Shown: positions 3,773 to 21,246 of the stretch, piece after piece
Layout of the letters: each line of letters opens with the position of its first letter
Numbering within the stretch: the stretch's first letter is position 1
DNA from: Fidelibacterota bacterium
GTDB taxonomy: Bacteria > Fidelibacterota > Marinisomatia > Marinisomatales > TCS55
Length of the DNA stretch: 34,400 bases
Assembly (NCBI GenBank): GCA_012964665.1
Contig: DTTO01000036.1
Span: 1-34,400 of the forward strand
Reading direction: 5' to 3'
The notes under the pieces: generated by a model
The model's database searches: none
The model's input: the letters and a program-made list of their open reading frames with translations, nothing else
What the model was told of the DNA's origin: nothing
Made by a program: the position numbers and the translations under genes

Positions 3773-5491
3773 CTATCCTGGTTCAGTATTGAGAAAATAA
3801 AGGGATATATAAAAAACGGATGTTGGGTTCGCATCGTCCAAATTATTGGTATATACAAATTTTTCCAAAGCCACATTATTACCAACAGTATATAATTCAG
3901 ATAACATCTGCTTTATCTTATTTACACCACTAATTCGGACAATAATTGGATTCTGGATATTATTACCCCGTTCAATCGGGTCGAGTACTTTTATGAATGA
4001 ATCTTTCATTTCTAAAACGAAAGATTGAAATTTTCCAAGAGTTAATTCAGATTGATTATTTATAATATCGACAGGTCGATAATTTACAAGATAACCATGT
4101 TTAAACTGTTTATCTCCATTTACTTGCCGTAGTGAATAATTCAATACATCTCCCAAAGTATCAATAGGCGTATCCATTGTTTTATTACCAATCAATTCCA
4201 AATCCATCTGGCCATCGCTTATAGATAATAAAAGTATTTGATGATCCTGTAATATATCAAGTGTATGGATTACAGTCGAAATCAAACTTTGAGATTCAAT
4301 TAAATATTTGGGACCTTCAACAGGTGGCTTCTCAATTTCAACTTCGACTTGAGACACAATCTCATCCTTTATCTCTTGGTCTACAATTGGGAACTTTTCC
4401 AAATTAGACATTGAAAGAAAATCAAATAACTCCGGCCTTTGATCATAGGTTAGCATGATACCTATTGTCATAAAGAAAAACATATATAATATTGGCTTAA
4501 GAATATTTATTTTTTTCTTTTTTCGCTTGACTTTTGGTTTCACTTTTTTTGTTTTCTTTTTTTCTTTTTTTGCTGATGCAGCTTTTGGTTTTTCAGAAAT
4601 TACAGGTTTTTCATATCGATATTGTTGAAGTCCGGGATTGTCAAAATAATTGAGTGCAACACCTTCTATTGTTCCGGTAGCAATAGCTGTTGTGGTATAA
4701 AGATCATCTTCTTTTACTTTGTTCGGAATAATGTTACCCTCGACTGAAATACCTTCCAAAGCAATCATTTGTTTAATTCTATGTCCTTTGAAATTAGCTT
4801 TTCTTTTATCGGACAATTTTCCCGCAACGATTAAACGTCCTTTGAAAACTTCTTTATTAGAAGTAGAACCAACAATGGGATTGAGCTTCCATTTCCCATT
4901 AATGTATCGGGCTTTTCCATTTTGAAAACTTTCTTTAGAAAAGTGAAAATATCTATAGCCATTTTTTTCGAGGTGAAATACTGTACATCCTTTGTCAGGG
5001 TTTAAAGCAAAAAATACGCTGGATTCAGTACCCATCCATACTGGCTCTCCGCCCAATTCCTGAATGGCGAGTTTTATAGTTTCACTATAAATAGTCGAAA
5101 CACGAGTTGCAAAAACAGATTTTGTTTTGCCTTCAAATGATCTGCCAAAATATTCACATGGCTTTTCAAAATGCCAGCGCTGTTTTAAACTCCACAGAGA
5201 TAATTCCCACCCATCATTTTCTGTCATATCCGCTTCAATCGGAACAATGACGGACTTACAATATTCATTCGGAATGGTTACATATACTTTTTCGCCCTCA
5301 AAAGGTATATCTTCACGAATTAAATGCAATCCGGCATTTAAAACTGAAATAATTTCAGATTCAGAGTTTTGTAATAATCGTAATGATCTTGGAAGTGTTT
5401 TATAAGAGAAAGAAGTCAGTAATGGCCGACCACCTTTTTGTGTCCATTGAGCACATAATAGATGGCTATCCGATATGGAGAGATGGATCAC
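3773..5491 (-). CDS. single-pass membrane protein, GspL/PilM-PilN-like layout
   Basis: I do not recognise a named family with confidence. Residues 1-290 look like a cytoplasmic alpha/beta domain. The opening IHLSISDSHLLCAQW and the late ATGTIEGVAL are loosely like the phosphate-binding turns of actin-like PilM/GspL proteins. Residues 300-330 are extremely lysine-rich, followed by one membrane segment at about 331-349. The C-terminal 220 residues are probably periplasmic and contain a PilN/GspL-like alpha-beta pattern. Cytoplasmic actin-like domain, one helix and a periplasmic domain is the layout of GspL or a fused PilM-PilN. That function is inference, since no other pilus or type II secretion gene is visible. 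The start lies 10 nt after the partner gene at 5502-6368. Confidence 0.8.
   Translation of the reverse strand: MIHLSISDSHLLCAQWTQKGGRPLLTSFSYKTLPRSLRLLQNSESEIISVLNAGLHLIREDIPFEGEKVYVTIPNEYCKSVIVPIEADMTENDGWELSLWSLKQRWHFEKPCEYFGRSFEGKTKSVFATRVSTIYSETIKLAIQELGGEPVWMGTESSVFFALNPDKGCTVFHLEKNGYRYFHFSKESFQNGKARYINGKWKLNPIVGSTSNKEVFKGRLIVAGKLSDKRKANFKGHRIKQMIALEGISVEGNIIPNKVKEDDLYTTTAIATGTIEGVALNYFDNPGLQQYRYEKPVISEKPKAASAKKEKKKTKKVKPKVKRKKKKINILKPILYMFFFMTIGIMLTYDQRPELFDFLSMSNLEKFPIVDQEIKDEIVSQVEVEIEKPPVEGPKYLIESQSLISTVIHTLDILQDHQILLLSISDGQMDLELIGNKTMDTPIDTLGDVLNYSLRQVNGDKQFKHGYLVNYRPVDIINNQSELTLGKFQSFVLEMKDSFIKVLDPIERGNNIQNPIIVRISGVNKIKQMLSELYTVGNNVALEKFVYTNNLDDANPTSVFYISLYFLNTEPG
4508..4592 (-). 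repeat. lysine-rich coding repeat, copy 2
   Basis: This stretch encodes KPKAASAKKEKKKTKKVK and the basic residues after it, just before the membrane helix of the 3773-5491 gene. It aligns without gaps over most of its length, at both DNA and protein level, with 6261-6347 in the adjacent gene. This suggests duplication or gene conversion rather than independent Lys-rich drift. Confidence 0.6.
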
Positions 5492-5501
5492 TTATAAGTA
5501 A

Positions 5502-6368
5502 TTACCTGTCCCAACTTTTTGTACCATCATCAACGAAACCATGGTTGTCGGCTTTAAACGCGAATATAGCATATCGCTTTCGCACAACTGTTTCTTCGAT
5601 AGGGCTATCTACCCTTACCACATTCCCCTCATCTTTGATTGAAATTAAATATGCTTTCTGTGTAACCGGACAGAAATACATAGAAGAATCCGGCATATAA
5701 GAATTGTAATAGTTCACAACTTCGACACGCTCAGAAGCTACTTCTTCTAGCACAGCAACAAAGTTCGAATCGGTAGTAAATTTTTTCAGGCGTTTTTTCT
5801 GAACATAAGATGTGTCATTACGTGATAAATCCTCTGAATACATGACAATGGTTGCTGTTGTATCCATAATAGTATCCCGACGCATCATCGGAAAACCAAA
5901 TGTTGTGTCAAAATCAACATCGTAGCCTTTAGGAACATTAACACTAAACTCCTGATTATTTAATTGAATTGATTGTTCACCTAAATATGTTGAATCGCCA
6001 GTAAGTGAATCACGAACTGAATTCACAACTTGCATCACCCAAAGTCCATCTGGATTATATTCACCTGTAAGGGATTTGTAAAAGTTTTGTATATCATACA
6101 TGTTTTCCATATAAAAACGGCTTTGATCTTCAAAAATTTCTTCTTCATCCCAAATAGCTCTAGGAACATAAATACTTATTATTAAAAATAAAAAAGCAAC
6201 CACAAAACCTATTTCCAACACGTCGGAATATATTTTTCTTTTTCTTACTATTTCTGAAGGTATTTTTTTCTTTTTTTGTTTGGCTTTTAATTCCACTTTC
6301 TTTGTTATCTTTTTATCTTTCTTTACTGCGGCAGATTTAGGTTTTTTTGAACGTTTTTTTTCAGACAT
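5502..6368 (-). CDS. single-pass membrane protein with lysine-rich N-terminus, unknown function
   Basis: I do not recognise this 288-aa protein. Residues 1-45 are almost entirely Lys, Ser and Ala, followed by a membrane segment at about 52-70 (VLEIGFVVAFLFLIISIYV). A soluble domain follows, which by the positive-inside rule is extracytoplasmic. That domain has repeated Asp/Ser/Thr-rich strands and one cysteine. The basic segment is nearly the same as the one in the downstream gene, and the pair is probably co-transcribed (10 nt gap). The ATG at 6368 has a GAGGA Shine-Dalgarno sequence 9 nt upstream. The two proteins may form one envelope complex, which is inference from adjacency and the shared segment. 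Confidence 0.8.
   Translation of the reverse strand: MSEKKRSKKPKSAAVKKDKKITKKVELKAKQKKKKIPSEIVRKRKIYSDVLEIGFVVAFLFLIISIYVPRAIWDEEEIFEDQSRFYMENMYDIQNFYKSLTGEYNPDGLWVMQVVNSVRDSLTGDSTYLGEQSIQLNNQEFSVNVPKGYDVDFDTTFGFPMMRRDTIMDTTATIVMYSEDLSRNDTSYVQKKRLKKFTTDSNFVAVLEEVASERVEVVNYYNSYMPDSSMYFCPVTQKAYLISIKDEGNVVRVDSPIEETVVRKRYAIFAFKADNHGFVDDGTKSWDR
6261..6347 (-). repeat. lysine-rich coding repeat, copy 1
   Basis: It encodes KPKSAAVKKDKKITKKVE and the basic residues after it, ahead of the membrane helix of the 5502-6368 gene. It aligns with 4508-4592: the pattern KPK-x-A-x-x-KK-x-KK-x-TKKV-x-x-K-x-K-x-KKKKI is shared, and most bases match by eye. Confidence 0.6.
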
Positions 6369-6399
6369 TTCCTTTAGTCCTCTATTCTAAAATACACAC

Positions 6400-6486
6400 T
6401 TATTTTTCAACAGAATTAAATAATCCATAGTCTTCTCTGAAAAATTTTCTTTTCGAATTAACAGGTGCATCATTGAGAATTGACAT
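6400..6486 (-). CDS. possible 28-residue small protein
   Basis: The 219-nt gap between dnaJ and the 5502-6368 gene, the longest in the window, holds an ATG-to-TAA frame on the minus strand. It encodes a 28-residue peptide starting MSILNDAPVNSKRKFF. The peptide is polar and basic with an FFREDYG core. There is no good Shine-Dalgarno sequence, and the ATG overlaps a TATAAT that could be the promoter of the downstream genes, in which case the ATG would not be transcribed. Chance is a reasonable explanation. Confidence 0.2.
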   Translation of the reverse strand: MSILNDAPVNSKRKFFREDYGLFNSVEK

Positions 6487-6490
6487 TATA
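6485..6490 (-). promoter_or_regulatory. candidate -10 box for the 5502-6368 / rsmD / coaD run
   Basis: The minus strand shows an exact TATAAT about 117 nt before the ATG of the 5502-6368 gene, in the longest intergenic gap of the window, directly after the hrcA-grpE-dnaJ operon. A -35 at the usual distance is poor. Position and the perfect -10 match are the only support. Confidence 0.35.
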
Positions 6491-6587
6491 TCAACTTTAT
6501 TCTAATTGAAGATATTAATACTTTTTTGGAATTGATTCTCGCTGTTTTCACCAAGATTTTACTAAACAAAAATTTTATAATCAATTT

Positions 6588-7712
6588 TCAATCCAGTTCA
6601 ACCCGTTTAAATACTGGTTCCGATTGTCCATTCAATGATAATAATTCTTCAAGTAATTTTTTCTGCTTTCGAGAAAGTGATTGGGGTGTTTGCACATGCA
6701 CTCTTACTAATTGATCACCTCGAGAAGATCCTCTTACTTTAGGGAATCCTTTTCCTCTCATTCGCAAAACTTGTCCAGCTTGAATCCCAGCAGGAATTTT
6801 TAGTTTTGCTTTGCCTTCTAATGTGGGCATTTCAATGGTTAATCCTAAAGCCGCTTGATAAAATTGGATTTGAACTTCCGTTATTAAATCCTCGCCATTT
6901 CTGGTAAAAACAGGATGATCTTTTTCCTCAAAAAACATAATTAAATCACCAGATTCATATCCTTTGGGACCTTTGTTTCCTTGCCTATTGAGTGTCATGT
7001 AATTTCCTTCTGCAACACCAGCCGGGACCTTAACCTTTATTTCAACGGTTTTCCGCTGAATACCATTACCACCACAAGTTTTACACGGATTTTCAATCAT
7101 ATCGCCAGACCCATTACATACTGGACATTCTTTTACGACTACCGATTGGCCAAAAAAGGATTGTGACATTTGACGAAGTTGACCTGTTCCACCACAATGT
7201 CTACAGGAAGTCGGCATTGTACCTGACTGAGCACCACTTCCTGAACATGTGTCACATGTTTCATGCCGTTTAATTTTGATTGTTTTGTCAGTACCTTTAA
7301 CGATATCCACATAATCCAATTTCAAAGTGACTTTCAGGTCACGAGCTTTTTTAACACGTTTTCTTCTACTTCTATTACCAAATATTCCACCAAATGGATC
7401 GAAATCACCGCCGAAAATATCCCCAAAACTGCTAAAAATATCTTCCATGGACATATTGCCATGAAATCCAGCGCCACCTGGTGCATCGCCGAGACCAACA
7501 CCAGAATGTCCAAACTGATCATACTGCCTTCTTTTGTTGTCATCCGATAGAACTGAGTAAGCTTCTGCTGCTTCTTTAAACTTACGTTCTGCTTCGGTAT
7601 CCTCTGGATTTTTATCTGGATGATATTTCATAGCAATCTTTCGATACGCTTTTTTTATCTCACTATCTGTTGCGCCTTTATCGACGCCTATGATTTCGTA
7701 TAAATCTCTCAT
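6588..7712 (-). CDS. dnaJ: chaperone DnaJ (Hsp40)
   Basis: This is the co-chaperone that delivers substrates to DnaK and stimulates its ATPase. The J domain is at 1-66 with HPD at 31-33, and a Gly/Phe-rich linker covers about 67-112. The zinc-binding region has four CxxCxGxG repeats: CDTCSGSG, CRHCGGTG, CPVCNGSG and CKTCGGNG (about 153-217). Two beta-barrel substrate-binding domains follow. At 374 aa it is a complete type I DnaJ. Its start overlaps the grpE stop by 4 nt, so it is translationally coupled in the hrcA-grpE-dnaJ operon. The DnaK gene is not in the window. Confidence 0.98.
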   Translation of the reverse strand: MRDLYEIIGVDKGATDSEIKKAYRKIAMKYHPDKNPEDTEAERKFKEAAEAYSVLSDDNKRRQYDQFGHSGVGLGDAPGGAGFHGNMSMEDIFSSFGDIFGGDFDPFGGIFGNRSRRKRVKKARDLKVTLKLDYVDIVKGTDKTIKIKRHETCDTCSGSGAQSGTMPTSCRHCGGTGQLRQMSQSFFGQSVVVKECPVCNGSGDMIENPCKTCGGNGIQRKTVEIKVKVPAGVAEGNYMTLNRQGNKGPKGYESGDLIMFFEEKDHPVFTRNGEDLITEVQIQFYQAALGLTIEMPTLEGKAKLKIPAGIQAGQVLRMRGKGFPKVRGSSRGDQLVRVHVQTPQSLSRKQKKLLEELLSLNGQSEPVFKRVELD

Positions 7713-8248
7713 GAAGGTGTTTGGTTTACAACAACTTTAGCATGTCGGATTACCCTGTCTTTATAACGATATCCCTTTTCAAAAACCTCTAGTATTTCAT
7801 TCTCATCTTTTCCATCTTCGGTACGCATCATAAGTGCATCATGTAGTTCAGGATTTACGATATCACCTGGTTTTGTAAAAGATACCACTTCGAGTTCCTC
7901 GAATCGCTTATTAATCTTATTTAAAATGAGATCAATACCTTCTTTGATTTTTTCATTATTATTACTTCCATTTTTTTCAGAAGCTTTTGCCAATCGATCT
8001 AAATCATCCAAAACAGATAAAAATTGTTTAATCACTAATTCTCCGTCATATTTTAAAAAATCGATTAGTTCTTTTTCTTTTCTCCTTCGGTAATTATCAA
8101 ATTCAGCTTTTAATCTCAAATATTTATCCTTTTGATCTTCAAGATCGTTCTTTTGCGAATTTATCTGTTCTTTAAGTTTGGTTGCTTTTGATTCTTTCTT
8201 CGATTTCTTTATAGTTTCGGAGATATTTTTCTTCTTTTTAGAGGGCAC
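7709..8248 (-). CDS. grpE: nucleotide exchange factor GrpE
   Basis: GrpE releases ADP from DnaK. A basic, lysine-rich N-terminus is followed by the long dimerising coiled coil with the family block YLRLKAEFDNYRRR. The C-terminal beta domain includes VVSFTKPGDIVNPELHDALM and the ending YRYKDRVIRHAKVVV. I place the start at the GTG at 8248 because GGAGA lies 9 nt upstream (8258-8262). A longer frame from a TTG at 8266 adds six residues but has no Shine-Dalgarno sequence. The gene overlaps hrcA by 11 nt and dnaJ by 4 nt. Confidence 0.95.
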   Translation of the reverse strand: MPSKKKKNISETIKKSKKESKATKLKEQINSQKNDLEDQKDKYLRLKAEFDNYRRRKEKELIDFLKYDGELVIKQFLSVLDDLDRLAKASEKNGSNNNEKIKEGIDLILNKINKRFEELEVVSFTKPGDIVNPELHDALMMRTEDGKDENEILEVFEKGYRYKDRVIRHAKVVVNQTPS

Positions 8249-9269
8249 TTTGTATAATCTCCGCAAATTTTTCTACAATCGATTGAACAGTCAAATATGG
8301 TATTCGTTTTGGTCCTAATACACCGATTCTCCCTTTGATTATATCGCTGTTAAACTCTGTTGTAATAATTGAACAATCATTTAATAGTTCATCTTCATTT
8401 TCTTTTCCAATTAATGTATGGCCTGAATGGGCATTGAAATTTTCTTGAAAATGTTGATTTAAATAAGCTTTATCCAGTGCCGGTAAAAGACGCTGGAAAC
8501 TGGTTAAATTTTGAAATTCAGGCTGTTCAAGCAATATATCGTATGATGAAGTATATATTGATTTATTTTTATTAAGATCAAAATATTTTTCACAGTCATT
8601 CACCAAAACTTGTACCAGTTCATGTGAATACATCTCTATATCATTCAACCTAACTCTAATTGTGGACTGGATTTCCTTTAATGAATAACCAATTAATCTG
8701 TCTTTTAAAACTTGTGTAATTTTCGCTACTAAATTCGGTTGAATATCTAAATCTAGATTGAGAACAATTGATTTCACTAATCCAGTATCAAGTGCTAATA
8801 CAAGCATCATACGATTCCCTTCAAGTGAAACCAATTCAATATCAGTAAGGATACTTCTTTGGTAACCAGATACCGATATAACTCCAAACATACGGCTAAC
8901 TTTAGCAAGCATTAATACAGTTGCATTTAGTAATTCATCCACATTATTTACAATAGTTAACAACTCTTGTTTAATATTATCTGAAAAAGGATCATACGAT
9001 GCAATAATCTCATGAGTAGCATTGACATAAAAGCGATATCCAACATCTGTTGGCACACGACCACCGGATGTATGAAAATGGGTTAATAATCCTTTTTGCT
9101 CAAGAGCAGCCATTACGGCCCGAATAGTCGCTGGTGATAAATTCAATCCACAATATTTCCTAATATATCCGGAAGATACAGGGATACCGGATTCAATATA
9201 CTTCTCAATAATTGCAGTGAGAATAGTGGCTTCCCGATTGTTCAAAGTTGGCAATTTAATCGTTGACAT
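8238..9269 (-). CDS. hrcA: heat-inducible transcription repressor HrcA
   Basis: HrcA is the DNA-binding repressor of class I heat-shock genes, which usually binds the CIRCE inverted repeat. The N-terminal winged helix (about 1-75) carries SPATIRAVMAALEQKGLL, then the family motif GGRVPTDVGYRFYV at 69-82. A GAF-like and inserted domain follow, ending in RIGVLGPKRIPY. The length of 343 aa is typical. It heads the hrcA-grpE-dnaJ operon. I looked for a CIRCE-like repeat (TTAGCACTC-N9-GAGTGCTAA) in the 58 nt before the start and found none, so its targets may be elsewhere or its operator divergent. Confidence 0.96.
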   Translation of the reverse strand: MSTIKLPTLNNREATILTAIIEKYIESGIPVSSGYIRKYCGLNLSPATIRAVMAALEQKGLLTHFHTSGGRVPTDVGYRFYVNATHEIIASYDPFSDNIKQELLTIVNNVDELLNATVLMLAKVSRMFGVISVSGYQRSILTDIELVSLEGNRMMLVLALDTGLVKSIVLNLDLDIQPNLVAKITQVLKDRLIGYSLKEIQSTIRVRLNDIEMYSHELVQVLVNDCEKYFDLNKNKSIYTSSYDILLEQPEFQNLTSFQRLLPALDKAYLNQHFQENFNAHSGHTLIGKENEDELLNDCSIITTEFNSDIIKGRIGVLGPKRIPYLTVQSIVEKFAEIIQSAL

Positions 9270-9327
9270 AGACCAGAAAATTAGATGGTTTGTTTTTCAG
9301 TAGTCAAGTAGGGAATTAAATGAAAAA

Positions 9328-10197
9328 TTACTTTATAAATTTTGAAATTGCCCTGCTACTTCCCATATAGCTTATCACAATACTAATGGAAGAAAGGATT
9401 CCAATTAGTATGAACGGATTATATTGAATTTTTATACTGGTTACCGAAAAAATAATTTCAGATCCAAACTCCATCCCAGCTATTAGTAATATTGATGCAA
9501 AAAGTGCCCCAATTAGCCCATGAAAAATACCTTCAATGATGAAAGGCATTTTTATAAATAATCGTGTCGCTCCGATTAAGTACAGTGATTTAATCAAATC
9601 TTTTTTGGCATATATAGTTAAACGAACTGTATTAGAAATAATAAATACTGAAATTCCTAACACGAAAATTAAAACAGCGGTCATAATCTTTACGAATTTT
9701 TGATAATATGATTCAATTTGGTAAATCAATCTACCTTGATAATTAACTTCATCCACTTCGGGATAATTTTTAATTCGATTAATAATCGGATTTACATTCA
9801 ATTTTGAAGTTTGATACCTGACTAGATTCACAACACAGCTTGCTGGTAATGGGTTATATCCGACAAGATCTAAAATATTTTCACCAAATTGAGACTTAAA
9901 TATTTTTTCTGCATCCAATTTCGAAATTAGGGTAGTTGACCGTACACCATTAATTTTTTTGAATTCTTCCACTACTTCAACAATTCGGTCATCTTTCACA
10001 CTATCATTAAAAAATACTTCTATTTTATATTTACCTCTAAAATATTCTATCACCCTATTTGTATTTTGACTCACAATAATCAAAGATCCTGTAACAGCTA
10101 ATGTCAAAAATGTAGAAAAAATAGCTGTGAAGGCAGTTAGTTTATGACGCCAAAGATTTTTCATACCCTCGGATAAAAGAAACATCATTTTATCCAT
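9328..10197 (-). CDS. ftsX: cell division ABC transporter permease FtsX
   Basis: FtsX is the membrane partner of FtsE. The complex regulates peptidoglycan hydrolases at the division site. Four membrane segments are seen at about 21-42, 170-189, 218-241 and 262-280. Between the first two lies the extracytoplasmic domain (about 45-165) with the family features YKIEVFFND and GVRSTTLISKLDAEKIF. The 289-aa length is normal. The start overlaps the ftsE stop by one base (TAATG), giving the standard ftsE-ftsX coupling. Confidence 0.95.
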   Translation of the reverse strand: MDKMMFLLSEGMKNLWRHKLTAFTAIFSTFLTLAVTGSLIIVSQNTNRVIEYFRGKYKIEVFFNDSVKDDRIVEVVEEFKKINGVRSTTLISKLDAEKIFKSQFGENILDLVGYNPLPASCVVNLVRYQTSKLNVNPIINRIKNYPEVDEVNYQGRLIYQIESYYQKFVKIMTAVLIFVLGISVFIISNTVRLTIYAKKDLIKSLYLIGATRLFIKMPFIIEGIFHGLIGALFASILLIAGMEFGSEIIFSVTSIKIQYNPFILIGILSSISIVISYMGSSRAISKFIK

Positions 10198-11948: not shown

Positions 11949-12530
11949 TCAATATATATTATTCTCATTAATAAATTTCCAAACAGGTTGTGTTACCATA
12001 TATCGAATCGTTTTATCTTCAATCCATCGAGTACGGATTTGACTTGAGGAAATTTCAATTCGAGGAATATTGGCAAATTGGACTTTAGCTAGAATCCAAT
12101 TTGGAATATCGCTAGGACGAAATCCAGGACGAATAGCCACAATTAATTGACACTCCTTTAATATAGCTTCTGGATTTTCCCACGCATGGAATTGTTTCAG
12201 GGAATCACTTCCAATTAAATAAAACAATTCATCCCGTGACAATTTTGTTTGTTCTTTATAGTCACGAACAGTTTCTAAGGAGTAGGATACCCCTCCGCGC
12301 TTGATTTCAATATCTGATATTTCAAAATTAGGATTATCCTTTATCGCAATTTTTAACATTTCTAATCGAAGTTCTAACGATGATATTTTTTTACCTTTTT
12401 TGTGTGGAGGTGTATGAGCAGGGATAAAAACAATCTTGTCAAAATGTTCTGCTTCAAAAATAGTTTGTGCGACAATTAAATGCCCAAAATGTGGTGGATC
12501 AAATGTGCCGCCAAATAGACAAGTTTTCAT
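11949..12530 (-). CDS. nadD: nicotinate-mononucleotide adenylyltransferase
   Basis: NadD joins AMP to nicotinate mononucleotide to form deamido-NAD in NAD synthesis. The signature GGTFDPPHFGH spans about 8-18. PAHTPPHK is the family block near 38, and LIGSDSLKQFHAWENPE is typical of NadD. The SSSQIR motif near the C-terminus is the nucleotidylyltransferase SxxxR signature. The length of 193 aa is usual. Its start overlaps the stop of the bamD-like gene by 4 nt. Confidence 0.95.
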   Translation of the reverse strand: MKTCLFGGTFDPPHFGHLIVAQTIFEAEHFDKIVFIPAHTPPHKKGKKISSLELRLEMLKIAIKDNPNFEISDIEIKRGGVSYSLETVRDYKEQTKLSRDELFYLIGSDSLKQFHAWENPEAILKECQLIVAIRPGFRPSDIPNWILAKVQFANIPRIEISSSQIRTRWIEDKTIRYMVTQPVWKFINENNIY

Positions 12531-13291
12531 TTCATTTCAATCCTATCAAAAACACGGCCTTGATCAAACCAAGCATTTACTAGATCCGCCATGTTTAGAT
12601 TTTCAATATTTTTCCGCTTTGACTCAAAGTGATTACGAGCTTCTTCAAATTCTCCCCTGTGAATATAAATTTCTATTATTTTTAAATGAGTTTGATCAAT
12701 GTAATCTGTATCATAATACAGATCTGTGACTAGTTTAAAAGCTAATAAGGCAGCTTTATATTCTTCCATTTTCATATATAAAACTCCTGATTCAAAAGAT
12801 TTATGGGATAGTTTATTCCTCAATATTTTAATGTCATCTTGGGCAGCAACAATATGTTTTGAATTGGGATAATCATCAATGAATTCTTGAAGTTTTTCCA
12901 AAGCTTTTTCAGAATGGGTTTGGTCTCGGAAAAATTTTGGAGAAAGGGTAACATACGACTGACAAATACGATATCTGGCGATTTCTACATATGGGCTGAA
13001 AGGCATCCTTCTCGTCAAGCGATCATATTCAGCAACAGCCAATAAATAATCCTTTGCATAATAATATGATTCTCCAAGGTAAAAGAGTGCGTCATCCCCC
13101 AATTCAGTATGTGATGCACCTACAACTACGGTATTAAATTTTTCTTGTGCCCTGATATATTTTTTTTTATTTAATGCAGCTTTACCATTCTCAAACTCTG
13201 CATTATAATCGATTTCCCGAACTGGTTTATTGCTGGCACATCCCGAAATCAGCAAACCTGTATACAATAAAATACTTGTTGCAACACGCAT
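12527..13291 (-). CDS. bamD: outer membrane assembly lipoprotein BamD
   Basis: This is a BamD/YfiO-type lipoprotein of the BAM complex that inserts beta-barrels into the outer membrane. From the ATG at 13291 the signal peptide reads MRVATSILLYTGLLISGC, with a good lipobox ending at Cys18. A GGAAAGA about 10 nt before this ATG supports it over the ATG at 13309, which has no Shine-Dalgarno sequence. TPR units follow (DALFYLGESYYYAKDYLLAV; ALEKLQEFIDDYPNSKHI), including the Y-x-x-A-x-x-x-F pattern of BamD. The gene lies in a block of outer membrane proteins, which fits the role. Confidence 0.88.
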   Translation of the reverse strand: MRVATSILLYTGLLISGCASNKPVREIDYNAEFENGKAALNKKKYIRAQEKFNTVVVGASHTELGDDALFYLGESYYYAKDYLLAVAEYDRLTRRMPFSPYVEIARYRICQSYVTLSPKFFRDQTHSEKALEKLQEFIDDYPNSKHIVAAQDDIKILRNKLSHKSFESGVLYMKMEEYKAALLAFKLVTDLYYDTDYIDQTHLKIIEIYIHRGEFEEARNHFESKRKNIENLNMADLVNAWFDQGRVFDRIEMK

Positions 13292-13327
13292 CAAATGAGT
13301 TCTTTCCATCAGTTTTGAGCGGTGAAT

Positions 13328-14155
13328 TTACCACCCATAGTTGATTTGAACACCTCCAACTCCCCACTTATTTACCGGATTATAATACAAACTGATTTCT
13401 GGAATTTTTTTTGCTTTTTTATTTGCTGTCCATGCTGCTTCGAATCCACTGGTAATGTGGTTTATCATCACCACCGTTACCGCATACTTAGAATAATGTT
13501 TCAGTAAATTGCTATCATGACGAAGGCTTCGATAATAGTCTTTTCTTTTCGTAAGCATTATCGACTCAACATTTCCTTTTTTTTCAGTAAACCAATTCCC
13601 ATTGGTATCAAATGGATCGTCATACTCGTCATCCCAACCGCCTACAAATTGATCATACTTACCAATATTTTCATAAAAATCCCTATCCCGAATTACAGCA
13701 ATTTCTGACCAACCATAATTGTTAACTAATTCGGCCAATCGATCCGTATGGTAATAATTCCCAGCGATCTTTAATCCAAGTTTATGTGTTCCAACGATAA
13801 TTTCTTTCCAACGATCTGGAAATATTCTCTGTGTATTTATATACCACCGTTCTAAGGCCCAATGATTATCACCGTATGCCTCAAAATCTAAACGAATATT
13901 TTCTGCACGATTTTCATAACGAAAAGATGAAAATATCCCTAATACTTCTACACCGGCAAACAACAATGGTTTCCATAATGGATCTTTATTTTGAACCTGA
14001 CCCCATCCTGGTAATATTAATGATTTGAACATTGCTTTGGTAGAAACTGGCATCTCAATCGCATTCCTTTGTATAGGATAATTTGCCAAATTATATTGGT
14101 CAAATTGACCAAGACTTATAGAAATAATAATCAGGTATGCAGAAACCCACTTCAT
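13328..14155 (-). CDS. DUF5683-like membrane/envelope protein
   Basis: After a signal peptide (about 1-17), the segment FKSLILPGWGQVQNKDPLWK at about 43-62 matches the LPGWGQ motif of DUF5683-like proteins found across FCB bacteria. A hydrophobic segment (LLFAGVEVLGIFSSF) follows. The middle is charged and Tyr/Trp-rich, with a hydrophobic stretch near 226-242, and the end (ISLYYNPVNKWGVGGVQINYGW) looks like a terminal beta-strand. The function of the family is not established. The gene abuts the upstream peptidase-barrel gene with no gap and precedes bamD by 18 nt, suggesting an outer-envelope role. Confidence 0.75.
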   Translation of the reverse strand: MKWVSAYLIIISISLGQFDQYNLANYPIQRNAIEMPVSTKAMFKSLILPGWGQVQNKDPLWKPLLFAGVEVLGIFSSFRYENRAENIRLDFEAYGDNHWALERWYINTQRIFPDRWKEIIVGTHKLGLKIAGNYYHTDRLAELVNNYGWSEIAVIRDRDFYENIGKYDQFVGGWDDEYDDPFDTNGNWFTEKKGNVESIMLTKRKDYYRSLRHDSNLLKHYSKYAVTVVMINHITSGFEAAWTANKKAKKIPEISLYYNPVNKWGVGGVQINYGW

Positions 14156-17086
14156 CTAAAATCCGAACAATATTGTGAAATAAAGACGATTTTCGCCACC
14201 ATATTGGATAGTGTTAATTTCATCCATAGAAATTTTAAACATATCAAGTCCTCGATGTAACTCCATACCGATCGATGTTGGATAATTATAAAATGAATAT
14301 CCTTGTAATCTGAGTTCAACACCAACGGACCTTTTGTAATCTAATTTTGATTCTACTCTATTCCATGCATCACCAATTTGACCAAAGAATCCAATGGTAC
14401 TATGCTGGAGGGTAAACCATCCTAAGGAAAAATGTTTTTCCCTAAAAAGAGGAATGCGAATTCCCGCATCACCTATAACCATATTTGTCCCCGCTAGACT
14501 GTAAAATGGATATCCCTTTATTCCAGGTATTCCCCCGGCAAAAAAGTAAAAAAAAGAATCGACAGATGCATTGTCAATCCACCCTATTTTTCCACCGATA
14601 GTGAACGTCCATCTATTTGTTTTCGGAATCTCCCATAAATATCGTCCACTAAGTTCATTACGAACAAGATTGTGATTATTGAAATTGGAGATCAAAGTTC
14701 CTGATTCGGATAGATCCAATCCGTCAATGAATTGGTTCCATTCTTTCCCAATATTCACATCTAACTCATATCCAACGGGGTTGATATTCTGGTCAATCCG
14801 ACGTTTATACTGTTCTAACGACCAATTTATTCCTGTTTCTTTTCCACGGAAATAATCATATCCGATTCCTGATTGTAATTTTGGTTTACCGATAACGTTT
14901 TCTTTGATTGATGCACGATACTGTGACCAGCTTCCATATAATTCAAACTTTGACCCATAAAATGGAATCCGAACACCCCCATGAAATTCAATTATTCTAA
15001 ATTTCAAATTATTATCAAGATTATAAACTGAATAAGAAGTTCTCTCTTCAATATTTCTACTGAGGTAGAATGTTTCGAAAAATATAGTGGGATACAGATG
15101 CCTATACTCAAACAAGAAAAATAAATCCAAATCGTGTGAGCTATTGATAGATGCACCACCAATAAGAGACGCTTTATCCAATATTTCAGAAGAATAAAAG
15201 TATATACCTGGCTTAAAGGTGCCATAATCCATGGTCATCCTTGGCATCGTAAACATGGGTGGAAAATGATCCTGATATTTTTTGGATATTGATTGTTTTT
15301 TTTGTGTGATGACAGGAGAAAGATCTTTATTTCGCTGAAAATACAAGGGTGTATATCCTACATGGGTATCTTCCATGATTTCAAGAGAATCTAGGATAGC
15401 AATTTTATATCCGCCATTTTCATATAACGCATAAGCAATCTTCCCACTCTCATGGATATCTGGCATAAATGCACCTCCAATGACGTTAGTCACATATCCC
15501 TGTTTCTCTTTACCGATATAATACAGATTAAAAATACCGGAACGATCATCACTGTAAATTATTCCTTCTGAGTTAAAATCCGCTTGACGTTCATCCCATA
15601 ATGCATTATTTGTAACACTGCCACTGGTACTATCTGACAGATTCAAATAATGAATATCCTTAAAATGGTTGATTGTAATATCATAGATCAACCGTTTATT
15701 CATGGTATCATAGTTCAAACCACCAATGATTTCACGATCTTTAAATTTTGTCAATTGCTCCGTTGAATTAGTTTTAAGATCAATCTTAAAAATATTTTGA
15801 GTGCCATCATCAGTGGCTAAATAATAAATAGTACTGTCCGAACCAACTACTGGTGAGAAAGCCCGTGCATCCTCGGTGATTCGATATTCTTTTTGTGTTG
15901 AAAAATCCATTTCGAAGAGGTCATAATACTTTGATCCTACTTTGTTAGGTGTTTTCGCCTTTTTCGAATAGATAATATTTTCCCCATGCCAGGTTGGCTT
16001 TGAATATACTCCTTCAACGATATTATTTACTGATCCATCCGTCATATCATAAATGAATAAATCTGTGCTACCAAAATAATCGTGATCTTGATTGGAAATA
16101 TAAGCGATCTTTGTCCCATCTTCATTCCAAGTTGGAAATAGATTTGCTGAACCTTTGTGCTCAATGATCTGCCTTTTTTCTTCATGATCCATGATCGATT
16201 GGCTTAATGTTTCATAACGAATGTTCAAGACGTTCACAAACTCATTATAGATGGTTCGGCCATCCTTTCCTGTGACATTTTGGATGGCAGTGTTGATTGA
16301 ATAATTCATTGGCTTACTAAGGGATGCCATGATACCCTCCAGAGACTCTGGACCATATTTCAGTGAGAGGTACCGGGAAAGGGCAAATCCAGCATTGTAA
16401 ACCGATTCATTCCCTATTCCGCTTTTGCCAAATGTGTTCATTTCCGTCCATGAAAGCATATTCCCTTTTAGAATGCGATCTCGTAAGATCATATCACGGA
16501 TGGAATCCCAATTATCCCAGTCAGCACCGGGATACATGAATTGACCCACGCCCTCTGCAAGCCAAGGTGGTATTGAAGTTCCCGGAATTGGATAACTTAC
16601 AAGTGTATTAGGATAGCCATAGAGTACGTCAGGGCGTTTTTCTTTTTCATATCCGATCCATTGTAAATACCCGCCGGGTATGGATTTTCCAAACTTTTGG
16701 GCACGCTGGATTGATACTATATGGGTGAACTCATGTGTAACCACATTCTGAAGCCATCGATGAGACCCGCGCAGTTCATAGTCCAAAGGGCTTGTCCAGA
16801 TGATAATCTTATTATCATAGAAATAGGCAGATCCGTTGGATATATCATCTGTATCGGTAAAAACGATGTCTGTTTTATCAAAAGGTTCATATTGATAAAA
16901 ATTTGTAACAAAGGGATAAATAAGCTCTGCCACATAGGCCCCTTCTCGGGCAGATTGTTCAGTCTGTGAATAATAATGGATCCGAAAATGGTCAGTCTCA
17001 ATAGACTGCCAATCCAGTTCTGGATGGTTATATTGCACTTGCCCAACAATGAAGGATATCCATAAAACGAAATGAATTACTCTCAT
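14156..17086 (-). CDS. HExxH peptidase - TolB-like propeller - Omp85-like barrel fusion
   Basis: This 976-aa protein has a signal peptide (about 1-15). A peptidase-MA-like domain follows, with HEFTH at 118-122 and the likely third zinc ligand in WLAEGVGQ (E178). From about 300 to 600 there are PD40/TolB-type propeller repeats (for example NLFPTWNEDGTKIAYISN). From about 620 to the end the sequence is beta-barrel-like and ends in Phe. Near the end, GGIPGIKGYPF (GIKGY at 855-859) resembles the (V/I)RGY loop-6 motif of Omp85 proteins, with Lys for Arg. No POTRA domain is evident. The parts suggest a surface or periplasmic metallopeptidase carried by its own barrel. It overlaps the upstream gene by 4 nt. 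Confidence 0.85.
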   Translation of the reverse strand: MRVIHFVLWISFIVGQVQYNHPELDWQSIETDHFRIHYYSQTEQSAREGAYVAELIYPFVTNFYQYEPFDKTDIVFTDTDDISNGSAYFYDNKIIIWTSPLDYELRGSHRWLQNVVTHEFTHIVSIQRAQKFGKSIPGGYLQWIGYEKEKRPDVLYGYPNTLVSYPIPGTSIPPWLAEGVGQFMYPGADWDNWDSIRDMILRDRILKGNMLSWTEMNTFGKSGIGNESVYNAGFALSRYLSLKYGPESLEGIMASLSKPMNYSINTAIQNVTGKDGRTIYNEFVNVLNIRYETLSQSIMDHEEKRQIIEHKGSANLFPTWNEDGTKIAYISNQDHDYFGSTDLFIYDMTDGSVNNIVEGVYSKPTWHGENIIYSKKAKTPNKVGSKYYDLFEMDFSTQKEYRITEDARAFSPVVGSDSTIYYLATDDGTQNIFKIDLKTNSTEQLTKFKDREIIGGLNYDTMNKRLIYDITINHFKDIHYLNLSDSTSGSVTNNALWDERQADFNSEGIIYSDDRSGIFNLYYIGKEKQGYVTNVIGGAFMPDIHESGKIAYALYENGGYKIAILDSLEIMEDTHVGYTPLYFQRNKDLSPVITQKKQSISKKYQDHFPPMFTMPRMTMDYGTFKPGIYFYSSEILDKASLIGGASINSSHDLDLFFLFEYRHLYPTIFFETFYLSRNIEERTSYSVYNLDNNLKFRIIEFHGGVRIPFYGSKFELYGSWSQYRASIKENVIGKPKLQSGIGYDYFRGKETGINWSLEQYKRRIDQNINPVGYELDVNIGKEWNQFIDGLDLSESGTLISNFNNHNLVRNELSGRYLWEIPKTNRWTFTIGGKIGWIDNASVDSFFYFFAGGIPGIKGYPFYSLAGTNMVIGDAGIRIPLFREKHFSLGWFTLQHSTIGFFGQIGDAWNRVESKLDYKRSVGVELRLQGYSFYNYPTSIGMELHRGLDMFKISMDEINTIQYGGENRLYFTILFGF

Positions 17087-19881
17087 TTGATAACAGCCAC
17101 CTTGATGATTTCTTCTTCGGATTTTCCTTCATTGCTTACGACCACTCTCGCAAAGTAAACACCAGATTCAATATTAGATAAATCCCAAGGCATTTCAAAA
17201 ACACTCGTAAATGGGTCGTTGTCATCCTGTATAGAAAACTTTTCTTTTATTCTCATACTTCTTGATTCAATTGGAAATCCTGCAATATCAAAAATATTAA
17301 TATCTATTGATTCCGCCACACCAACTTGAATTCTAAAAATTATCTTTTTCCCGTAACTCGGATTGGGGTAAGCGTAAGACAATTCATTATTAAGTAGATA
17401 GGGGTTGTATTTAGAAGATACTTCTGGAACTGAAGTGTATCGAGAATAATCAGGAGACGAGTATACATATTTCCAATCATTCTCTAAACCGTACGTATCT
17501 TTTTTATATTTAATAACTTGGTTGGTTGTAATGATTGCATGACTACCCCCATAAGTCCCCAAACCCGTCAATTTATTACCTGTAGAAATACGATCTTTCT
17601 CAATACCTTGATGGTCTAAAATTCTAATATTCCCATCTGATGTTTGATAAACCAATTCTGGTTTATCATCTTCTATTAAATCAATACCTAATACCGACCC
17701 AATTGCATCGGCTTCAATTGGAAAACCATTTTTATAATAAAAATTCAGATCAAATGCATGGATCGTACCATTTTGATCAGTTGCTAGGATATCAATAAAA
17801 CCGTCACTTTCAATATCGATAAGTGAAACAGATTCAAATTCTCCATAATGATTACGTGTTGGTCCTTGGGTTATACGATCAGGATATAAAAACACATTTC
17901 CCATTTGGTTAGACGAATAGGAAAACTGGTCCATATCGCCCTCAAAGGGATTGAGAGAATTTTCATCTATTTGTAAGAAAAGTGAATCATCATTAAAAAC
18001 AATTCTTTTCTCTGCCCCATCCGCTTTAAGTAAGTTTACATATAAGGTATTCTTTTTTACGTTTTCCCACTCTCTTATAAAACTTCCTTGAGTTCTATCA
18101 TATTCAAACCATTCAAAAATCTGATTATCGCCAACTTTTCTTACAGTGGCTAAAGCAGTTGGATTTGCATTCTGTGCCACGCAGACTTGCAGATTATCAC
18201 CCATATTTTTGTAGAATGCGGTCACCTTCTCCAGGTCATCTCCCCACCAAAGGGAATCGCCTTCACCTACAAAGTCTAAATCACCATCTCCATCCACGTC
18301 CCACTGAAAGAGAATGGATTTATTTTCATCCATGAAAAATGCTATATCATAGCCGGAAGAAAGTGTAAAGGACATGGTTTTGCCAGATTGGGAAATATTA
18401 TTGATATTAATACCTGTATTGGCGCCACTATTGGATTTTGTATTGGGATAGGTAAAAGATGAAAAATTCATATTTCCCTCTGCGTTGGCCCGGTAGTATT
18501 CCTGGTTTTCAGCAAACCACATATCTCCCCAATATCCGGATGAAGGGTCTGTTAATAAATTCGATATATACCCAATATCCTGGGCCCCATCAGCTTCCTC
18601 AAGGTCCACTCCACGGTGCTTTCGATTGGCATTAATAGAAAATGAATCCATCCCTTCACGAATTTTCTTTTCATTAATATGCCAGATTAGCAATCCAGAT
18701 CCAGGCAAGCCCAGATCATAATTGGGAATTTCCGTAATAACACCATATTCATTTTTTTTCACACCTACAGAATCCATAAGGACATTAATTAATGGTGGAT
18801 ATTCATCAGTTTTTTCCCAAACAGTGTATCGGGCCGAATCCATGCTAACACCATCCCGAATCCAGTTATTTCGATTTTCCACTAAAAAATATTCATCTTC
18901 ACCTATGAAAATTTTTGCAATCTGGTTGGCACTTCGATCATCGAGCTGAACAAGTTCATTATAATTGATATCAGTTGGTAATTCCCAGCCAGCATTAATT
19001 CTTGTCCATGCATCTGGCGGTGCGGGGATGATGCCGCGTCCATTGTTTGATCCTTGATCCATCAGACTAAAAATACCTACACCTGATTGACCTGATTCCA
19101 AATCCCATAATGGCGGTAGACCTACAGCAAATCCGATCATCATGGCCATGGTGCCAGTCAAACTGTATTGAATATCACATGGGTTTGACAATTGATTAAA
19201 AAGGGATTCATCGTAAAAAAGATGGTTTTGCGTTTCTGGAAGAATAATCCCATGGGAAATGGTGGTGCCGCCTATAAATATTGGTCCGCCTAGGTGAGTA
19301 TTTACCATATCTTTATCCACATAGGTCGATGGAATATCTTCTGGTGTTGGATCTAAAAAAGGTAATTTAAAATCTTGACCTACACCCGGGTGGACAACAG
19401 CTACCAAATCATAAATACTGAAATCAATCTGATCAATGTCATATGCCGTTAACAAAGCTTCATTTAAAAGTTCAGTGATTCGTTTTTCATGCACATCCTC
19501 TTCGCCTAATTCATGGTAATAATTCATGGGCTTTTGGATTACATAACTTGACTGATTTTTTTGCGGATATACAGTTGAGTTTATTATATCCAACCTAAAT
19601 TTTTCATAGGAAACGCTTCGGAAATAATTATTAACTGCTGCAAGGTGAGATTCGAAATAGTTTTTATCATGAGGAGGTCCATCAATTGTATAATTACCAC
19701 ACTCAATAGTTTGTTTCGCATATAAATAATCGCCATTACCAGTTACACCAGGATATATATCCGATGGAAAAGAAATACGAATGACAGCAACCTTCAGGTT
19801 ACCTAAGACATTCGCGCTGAGAGATAAAAATGCGGAAAGCAGAAAGGCAACTGCCCATCTGCAAATGATGGCTCTATTCAT
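17083..19881 (-). CDS. M6-like surface protein without HExxH, with T9SS C-terminal domain
   Basis: The fold of an M6 (immune inhibitor A-like) protease is recognisable from GLPPLWDLESG (254-264), GLLIWHINE near 396-404 and RGVDLEEADG near 423-432. The zinc motif HExGH is replaced by MMIGF at 247-251, so no peptidase activity is expected. FG-GAP-like Asp-rich repeats follow (DVDGDGDLDFVGEGD near 528; another near 690-760). The C-terminal domain begins with AYPNPSYGKK and ends IIKVAVIK, like type A sorting domains of type IX secretion. A signal peptide is at about 1-24. It starts 12 nt after the PorV-like gene, its likely exporter or anchor partner. It may bind rather than cut polymers. Confidence 0.88.
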   Translation of the reverse strand: MNRAIICRWAVAFLLSAFLSLSANVLGNLKVAVIRISFPSDIYPGVTGNGDYLYAKQTIECGNYTIDGPPHDKNYFESHLAAVNNYFRSVSYEKFRLDIINSTVYPQKNQSSYVIQKPMNYYHELGEEDVHEKRITELLNEALLTAYDIDQIDFSIYDLVAVVHPGVGQDFKLPFLDPTPEDIPSTYVDKDMVNTHLGGPIFIGGTTISHGIILPETQNHLFYDESLFNQLSNPCDIQYSLTGTMAMMIGFAVGLPPLWDLESGQSGVGIFSLMDQGSNNGRGIIPAPPDAWTRINAGWELPTDINYNELVQLDDRSANQIAKIFIGEDEYFLVENRNNWIRDGVSMDSARYTVWEKTDEYPPLINVLMDSVGVKKNEYGVITEIPNYDLGLPGSGLLIWHINEKKIREGMDSFSINANRKHRGVDLEEADGAQDIGYISNLLTDPSSGYWGDMWFAENQEYYRANAEGNMNFSSFTYPNTKSNSGANTGININNISQSGKTMSFTLSSGYDIAFFMDENKSILFQWDVDGDGDLDFVGEGDSLWWGDDLEKVTAFYKNMGDNLQVCVAQNANPTALATVRKVGDNQIFEWFEYDRTQGSFIREWENVKKNTLYVNLLKADGAEKRIVFNDDSLFLQIDENSLNPFEGDMDQFSYSSNQMGNVFLYPDRITQGPTRNHYGEFESVSLIDIESDGFIDILATDQNGTIHAFDLNFYYKNGFPIEADAIGSVLGIDLIEDDKPELVYQTSDGNIRILDHQGIEKDRISTGNKLTGLGTYGGSHAIITTNQVIKYKKDTYGLENDWKYVYSSPDYSRYTSVPEVSSKYNPYLLNNELSYAYPNPSYGKKIIFRIQVGVAESIDINIFDIAGFPIESRSMRIKEKFSIQDDNDPFTSVFEMPWDLSNIESGVYFARVVVSNEGKSEEEIIKVAVIK

Positions 19882-19893
19882 ATGAAATTCAGA

Positions 19894-21246
19894 TTAAAAC
19901 TGAACATTTATGGAGAACCGCATCGTATTGGTCAAAGGGTGACCAGGTTCTCCAGATGTATACCCAAAATCAAATCCGTAGTTAGAAAAACGTAAACCCA
20001 CACCAAAGGTTGGATTAGAAATTTTACCCGTTTTATCATAATAATAACCAGTTCTTAATGCAAAATAGGTTGAATACCAATATTCCATACCAAAATTATG
20101 AACTAACTTATCCAATTCATCCTGAATTGTACGGTCATCAGCAGAACCTACTTCTTTTTGTCCCCACTCATTGTAAATACCCCAATGATCACCACCGAAT
20201 ACAGCATTTTCTGTCTTAACCATTTCTTCTGCATCTCGCTTACCATTAGCGTTGGCATCACCAGCCCATTCCCAACCTCCGATCTTTCGATCCGTTTCCT
20301 CTCCTGCCGGCGCACGATCAATATCACCACCGAGTAGCCAATCATCTACCCAAGAGGTAAAAATTGCCTTAAAAAGACGGTCTTTATGTGCGACTTCTAA
20401 CTTGCCATTTCGATTATAATCAGAATTTTTTGTACTTTCTTTTCCATTTTTATTATACCCGCCAACAATTCCATCTCCATCCCAATCCATATCAGGATAG
20501 GAAGCCACTAATAGTTTATCAACATCATAGACTACTTTTATGCTGTTATAATCATTTTTAAATACCTCATATCCCAAACCAAGGGTCAAGTTTGTAGGTT
20601 GCGGATCCGCCTGATCAGGATCAATGAATGAAACTTTTGGACCAATATTCGTCATCGTGACTCCTACATCCAACCTTGGTGTCAAAAATCCTTTATTCAT
20701 ATATCCAAGATCAAAACCAAAATCCGTTGAAGTTCCCTTACCTTTTTCAGAGCCAGTTCCTATCTCAACTAAATGTTGATAGGATATTTTGGCATTCATT
20801 CCAAAGGATGAGGTTGATGAAAGTTTTGTACTGTAAGAAAATGCCGTTGCCATCATATAAGAAGTGAATTTCCCCTGGTATTGAGCGTATTCGTCCATCC
20901 GAACCTGCTCACCAAGATTAAGGTATATCAAATGGCCGCCAAGCGTACCTAAATTGGGAAAATGTCGTCGAAATCCTAAAAATTCATAGTAGAGGTCGTC
21001 GGCTAAATTTGGAAGCCAATTTACATGCATGAAGGCAATTTCAGAACCATCCTGGAAAGCGAGTCCCGCCGGATTCCAATAACTGGCAAAAGCATCATCG
21101 GCTACAGCAACCTGTGCCTCTCCCATGCCGCCGGCACGTGCGCCAGGCGATATCAACAGGAATATTGCACCTGCTTCACTTTGTGCATTGAGGGACGGAC
21201 CGCTAATAAGCAGAAGCGCCACCACAATTGAATATATCCGTTTCAT
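19894..21246 (-). CDS. PorV/PorQ-family outer membrane barrel with EF-hand-like loops
   Basis: This 14-strand-type barrel belongs to the PorV/PorQ group, which in type IX secretion takes cargo with C-terminal sorting domains to the cell surface. The signal peptide ends near SLNAQ (about 22). The family opening FLLISPGARAGGMGEAQVAVADDAFASYWNPAG is clear at about 29-61, and the ending is RFSINVQF. Unusual is an insert at about 250-345 carrying three Asp/Asn loops (252-258, 276-284, 330-341). The last fits the 12-residue EF-hand pattern exactly. An AAGGA Shine-Dalgarno sequence lies 7 nt before the ATG. It heads a run of envelope genes after a 144-nt gap. Confidence 0.9.
   Translation of the reverse strand: MKRIYSIVVALLLISGPSLNAQSEAGAIFLLISPGARAGGMGEAQVAVADDAFASYWNPAGLAFQDGSEIAFMHVNWLPNLADDLYYEFLGFRRHFPNLGTLGGHLIYLNLGEQVRMDEYAQYQGKFTSYMMATAFSYSTKLSSTSSFGMNAKISYQHLVEIGTGSEKGKGTSTDFGFDLGYMNKGFLTPRLDVGVTMTNIGPKVSFIDPDQADPQPTNLTLGLGYEVFKNDYNSIKVVYDVDKLLVASYPDMDWDGDGIVGGYNKNGKESTKNSDYNRNGKLEVAHKDRLFKAIFTSWVDDWLLGGDIDRAPAGEETDRKIGGWEWAGDANANGKRDAEEMVKTENAVFGGDHWGIYNEWGQKEVGSADDRTIQDELDKLVHNFGMEYWYSTYFALRTGYYYDKTGKISNPTFGVGLRFSNYGFDFGYTSGEPGHPLTNTMRFSINVQF

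Follow-up and report, generated by a model that had tools for sequence, protein, structure and literature searches.

The DNA described here raises the question of what is accomplished by a protein in which a peptidase, a β-propeller and an outer membrane barrel are joined in one chain, and on which side of the outer membrane its peptidase works. The window, i.e. the whole stretch of 34,400 nucleotides that was analysed, is contig C36; the assembly to which it belongs has 1.59 Mb and is 75.6% complete. The open reading frame of 976 residues at positions 14156-17086, to which an earlier note had drawn attention without giving its strand, is real and is read on the minus strand from 17086 to 14156. 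The protein is called P0001 below. Its orthologues are mostly titled Candidatus Neomarinimicrobiota or Marinimicrobia.

Domain structure of P0001

The earlier note had placed a peptidase, a propeller and an Omp85-like barrel with no POTRA domain in a single chain, and this layout is supported by profile matches, by an AlphaFold2 model and by Foldseek searches. The model was built on 62 aligned sequences and has a mean pLDDT of 89.7 and a pTM of 0.88, with residues 1-17 falling below a pLDDT of 50. The signal peptide is followed by a domain of mixed helices and strands, which extends to about residue 302, and then by the propeller, the linker and the barrel (Table 1). The mean column identity of the 62-row alignment is 71% in the peptidase domain as compared to 57% in both the propeller and the barrel.

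Table 1. Features of the P0001 gene and of the neighbouring genes in the window
Feature	Positions	Strand	Remarks
P0001, whole gene	14156..17086	-	976 aa; signal peptide, gluzincin-type peptidase, six-bladed propeller, 16-strand Omp85-type barrel
Signal peptide, residues 1-16	17039..17086	-	Hydrophobic N-terminus ending at conserved Q16; putative cleavage site
Peptidase domain, residues 17-302	16181..17038	-	Gluzincin type; most conserved part of P0001
HEFTH, residues 118-122	16721..16735	-	Helix 111-129; H118, E119 and H122 invariant in 62/62
E178 in PPWLAEG	16553..16555	-	Helix 174-183; predicted third zinc ligand; invariant in 62/62
TolB-like β-propeller, residues 303-566	15389..16180	-	24 strands, six blades
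Linker, residues 567-611	15254..15388	-	AlphaFold2 secondary structure; too short for a POTRA domain
16-strand Omp85-type barrel, residues 612-976	14159..15253	-	C-terminal F; AlphaFold2, Foldseek, PF01103 matches of orthologues
Loop-6 motif GGIPGIKGY, residues 851-859	14510..14536	-	Between barrel strands 11 and 12, a position worked out from the C-terminal end
PorV/PorQ-family outer membrane protein	19894..21246	-	Long acidic insert; PorV_fam 4e-74, above cut-off
M6-like inactivated metalloprotease, type IX sorting tail	17083..19881	-	NF052323 4.2e-111; upstream, 4-nt overlap with P0001 gene
DUF5683 protein	13328..14155	-	PF18935 9.5e-9; downstream of P0001 gene, 0 nt gap
BamD/YfiO lipoprotein	12527..13309	-	TIGR03302 3.9e-38; only one above cut-off in assembly
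NadD	11949..12530	-	CTP_transf_like 3.8e-28; last gene of run, 4-nt overlap with BamD

The HEFTH sequence at residues 118-122 and the distal E178, which had been proposed as a zinc site, are both present: H118, E119, H122 and E178 are unchanged in all 62 rows, and the model places HEFTH and E178 in two separate helices. The Pfam model Peptidase_MA_2 gives 23.3 bits for P0001 and 28.3 bits for the isolated domain, with the cut-off being 32.4 bits, and matches every one of the 62 aligned sequences at E ≤ 0.01 (best 3.5e-14). Folded alone, the domain has a pLDDT of 87.2, and its best matches among solved folds are gluzincins, namely lugdulysin (M30), M1 aminopeptidases, collagenase G (M9) and an M61 peptidase. 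Judged by its sequence, which has the conserved HExxH and distal glutamate of this group, the N-terminal domain is probably a gluzincin of clan MA. P0001 shares with the Peptidase MA gluzincins (M1, M9, M30, M61) the HExxH and the position of the distal glutamate in a W-x-x-E-G helix, but differs from them in the 55-residue spacing between these two elements, which contains an insertion, and in the propeller and barrel fused to it. P0001 would be expected to bind zinc and to cleave proteins.

The PD40/TolB-like propeller of the earlier description is borne out by matches to PD40 (E = 0.008), to the NCBIfam TolB propeller model (5.7e-11) and to TolB in the PDB (1.9e-6). Its fold matches TolB at 2.7e-10 in Foldseek, and a search of the PDB sequences with the 62-row profile matched only TolB and one TolB-like protein. 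In the model, 24 short strands (306-565) form the six blades. A stretch of some 46 residues, in which one short helix is predicted, separates the propeller from the barrel and is insufficient for a POTRA domain.

The C-terminus is predicted to be a barrel of 16 strands (612-974) with the loop-6 motif present, as had been anticipated; a short strand at 798-804, taken as part of a hairpin, is left out of this count. In Foldseek, the full P0001 model matches TamA at 3.9e-8 and Bacteroides BamA at 9.1e-7. The Pfam Omp85 model, PF01103, does not match P0001 itself. It matches nine of the 62 aligned barrels (best 3.1e-11), and two paralogues of P0001 exceed its cut-off. The assignment of P0001 to the Omp85 proteins is therefore based on its orthologues, its paralogues and its fold.

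In known Omp85 proteins, the loop-6 arginine of the (V/I/L)RG(F/Y) motif forms a salt bridge with an acidic partner. The position of loop 6 and its G-Y are retained in all 62 aligned sequences; the arginine is replaced in 49 of them (by lysine in 42 and by glutamine in seven), and the usual acidic partner is a glutamine in 51. P0001 resembles BamA and TamA in its 16 strands and in the location of the loop-6 motif, which follows strand 11 and precedes strand 12. It differs from them in that it has no POTRA domain and in that, among the 62 sequences, the loop-6 arginine is mostly lysine and the partner mostly glutamine instead of aspartate. Omp85 proteins of the BamA/TamA/FhaC type are defined by at least one POTRA domain, and P0001 has none.

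The two paralogues, G000:C10 (980 aa) and G000:C53 (1056 aa), are encoded in the same genome and have the domain order for which the earlier note had proposed to search, together with the HExxH and W-x-x-E-G motifs. They are 22-24% identical to P0001 and, unlike P0001, have the canonical loop-6 arginine. An hhalign comparison of the P0001-family barrel with the paralogue barrels gave weak matches, with probabilities of 58.9% and 11.6%. The genome has three such proteins in all, the two besides P0001 being located at 6792-9731 (-) of L010 and at 3882-7049 (+) of L011.

Relation to known Omp85 proteins

Fusions of a propeller to an Omp85 barrel are already known. In the sections of PMC4104836 that deal with it, the WD40-Omp85 subfamily, defined in 2014 by Heinz and Lithgow, is likened to a BamA-BamB fusion, and TolB is named as its closest propeller structure. 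Like the proteins described there, P0001 has a propeller N-terminal to an Omp85-type barrel and no POTRA domain, and would accordingly be placed in this subfamily. It differs in the conserved gluzincin that precedes the propeller, as those sections mention no peptidase domain. The gluzincin is the new part of the architecture.

PF00149 is presumably a metallophosphoesterase and not the peptidase of P0001. In the same sections of PMC4104836, it defines the 'Metallo' Omp85 subfamily. The BAM of Bacteroidota has extra subunits, including the propeller protein BamI, and the parts of PMC12611786 and PMC12578637 that concern them describe no such fusion. Neither the architecture nor the operon of P0001 was found in open-licence papers on Omp85 proteins with a peptidase, a propeller or type IX secretion, and on type IX secretion in Marinimicrobia.

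The Omp85 proteins studied before PlpD promote the assembly or the translocation of outer membrane proteins (PMC11116518). PlpD and related patatin-like Omp85 proteins have an N-terminal enzyme fused to the barrel, and the analogy to PlpD made in the earlier note holds to this extent. It does not extend to surface display: contrary to the original proposal, the patatin domain of PlpD has turned out to stay in the periplasm (PMC11116518). Furthermore, PlpD combines a patatin lipase with a POTRA domain, whereas P0001 has a zinc-peptidase-like domain, a propeller and no POTRA. Pfam and NCBIfam scans found no patatin family in P0001.

The operon and its conservation

P0001 belongs to an operon with the order PorV, M6-like, P0001, DUF5683, BamD and NadD, in which the successive genes are spaced by +12, -4, 0, +18 and -4 nt. 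The M6-like protein scores 372.6 bits with NF052323, the 'T9SS-dependent M6-like inactivated metalloprotease' model, which is under the 600-bit equivalog cut-off, and its sorting tail (TIGR04183) is borderline, with 23.8 bits in one search and 20.1 in another at a cut-off of 23. In all 56 M6-like sequences of an alignment, HExxH is absent from the place of the active site; this conserved pseudopeptidase is, nevertheless, retained across the phylum. Type IX secretion is represented in the source genome by SprA (2.2e-178), a C25 peptidase and 12 sorting tails.

Among 80 related loci, the M6-like gene is a neighbour of the P0001 relative in 72, DUF5683 in 71, BamD in 66, NadD in 65 and PorV in 54, absences falling mostly where contigs end. 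The order PorV, M6-like, P0001, DUF5683, BamD recurs throughout loci L042-L121 as well as in distant members of the phylum. In distant Neomarinimicrobiota, the run from PorV to BamD stays while the flanking genes differ. Within the taxonomic order, gene order by itself is weaker evidence than in these distant members, as much of the surrounding region is conserved there as well. Conserved gene order can reflect expression rather than contact. One locus (L118) has a P0001 relative without the usual neighbours, and its flanks include masked stretches.

Loss of a three-gene block

Of 140 genomes that do not belong to one neomarinimicrobial family, called f15 here, about 133 have a full or partial P0001 orthologue, as compared to none of the 11 that do. 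The 11 f15 genomes, which are reduced (0.8-1.0 Mb), contain no full orthologue. The M6-like core is absent from all 11, its model giving weak, tail-level matches only (best 1.3e-11), and DUF5683 has no match in any of them. SprA is above its cut-off in all 11. As SprA persists without P0001, P0001 is not a core part of the translocon; a requirement for P0001 in the type IX translocon as such is ruled out by these genomes.

In five f15 loci (G066, G067, G064, G038 and G063), PorV adjoins BamD and NadD, the flanking genes are intact, and the three-gene block is gone. PorV is 311-314 residues long in four f15 genomes as compared to 450 in the window. Its long acidic, aspartate-rich insert is present in genomes that have the three-gene block (G113, G042, G145 and G124) and missing in the four f15 genomes that were aligned.

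Outside Neomarinimicrobiota, the block is known from a single contig of Ignavibacteriota (L120, titled Ignavibacteriales), where a long tree branch carries the P0001 homologue and the order is M6-like, P0001 homologue and DUF5683, with no BamD after them. The triple is followed there by unrelated genes resembling respiratory-complex subunits, and the contig may be misbinned. The M6-like, P0001 and DUF5683 genes so behave as a unit, the support being one loss event and one outgroup case. The loss in f15 happened only once in evolution, in a family with reduced genomes, and could be simple streamlining.

Possible function of P0001

By combining these observations, it is possible to propose how P0001 may work. 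The explanation to which we give an even chance is that P0001 is a zinc peptidase anchored in the outer membrane and facing the periplasm, which serves the M6-like type IX cargo and forms a module with DUF5683 beside PorV and BAM. The barrel would reside in the outer membrane, with the propeller and the peptidase hanging in the periplasm. The propeller would recruit or hold a client, and the peptidase would cut it. The likeliest client or partner would be the M6-like protein, which would cross the periplasm before its export by SprA and PorV. The three proteins would then constitute an accessory module that operates alongside PorV and the BAM machinery. The periplasmic topology, the identity of the client and a physical contact with PorV or BAM are what we infer. 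A periplasmic orientation is favoured because the N-terminal domains of a 16-strand barrel are expected on that side and because the enzyme of PlpD stays there (PMC11116518).

A further-reaching proposal, which we consider rather unlikely, is that the three proteins are a previously undescribed outer membrane module. An Omp85 barrel with no POTRA domain would bring along its own protease for the maturation or assembly of a single dedicated type IX cargo, and the coupling to PorV would be via the lineage-specific insert of the latter.

BepA provides a comparison for a protease at the BAM complex. The main rival to a dedicated client, of similarly low probability to the further-reaching proposal, is that P0001 is a general quality-control protease of the BepA kind, which degrades or rescues stalled barrel proteins at BAM with its propeller acting like BamB, and to which the M6-like protein is a mere neighbour. 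The presence of BamD in the same operon, the two further paralogues in the genome and the likening of propeller-Omp85 proteins to a BamA-BamB fusion in the sections of PMC4104836 cited above are all consistent with such a role. It fits poorly with f15, which keeps SprA (11 of 11) and BamD (in the five loci read) yet loses P0001 together with the M6-like protein and DUF5683, and with the Ignavibacteriota contig, where the triple is found with no BamD after it.

Quite improbable is an active peptidase with a receptor-like or metabolic role, such as the import of peptides via the barrel, with no relation to secretion or BAM: the propeller family does include the peptide-binding TolB and the propellers of S9 peptidases, but no gene for a transporter or a periplasmic binding protein is kept alongside P0001 throughout the phylum, the conserved neighbours being PorV, a type IX cargo, DUF5683 and BamD. 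Least probable of all is a self-displaying protease whose barrel moves the peptidase and the propeller to the cell surface, as was first proposed for PlpD; the enzyme is N-terminal to an Omp85-type barrel, and the surface is where both PorV and the M6-like partner should act, but N-terminal domains joined to the first strand of a 16-strand barrel are to be expected on the periplasmic side, the six-bladed propeller would need to cross in folded form, and PlpD's own enzyme remains periplasmic (PMC11116518).

As one lineage has lost the block as a unit, the role of the three genes can be tested. An Omp85 protein whose peptidase is conserved, which nearly all of a marine phylum retains and which has disappeared in one block with a dead, exported protease, makes a defined three-gene unit, which allows links among proteolysis, outer membrane assembly and type IX secretion to be asked about outside Bacteroidota.
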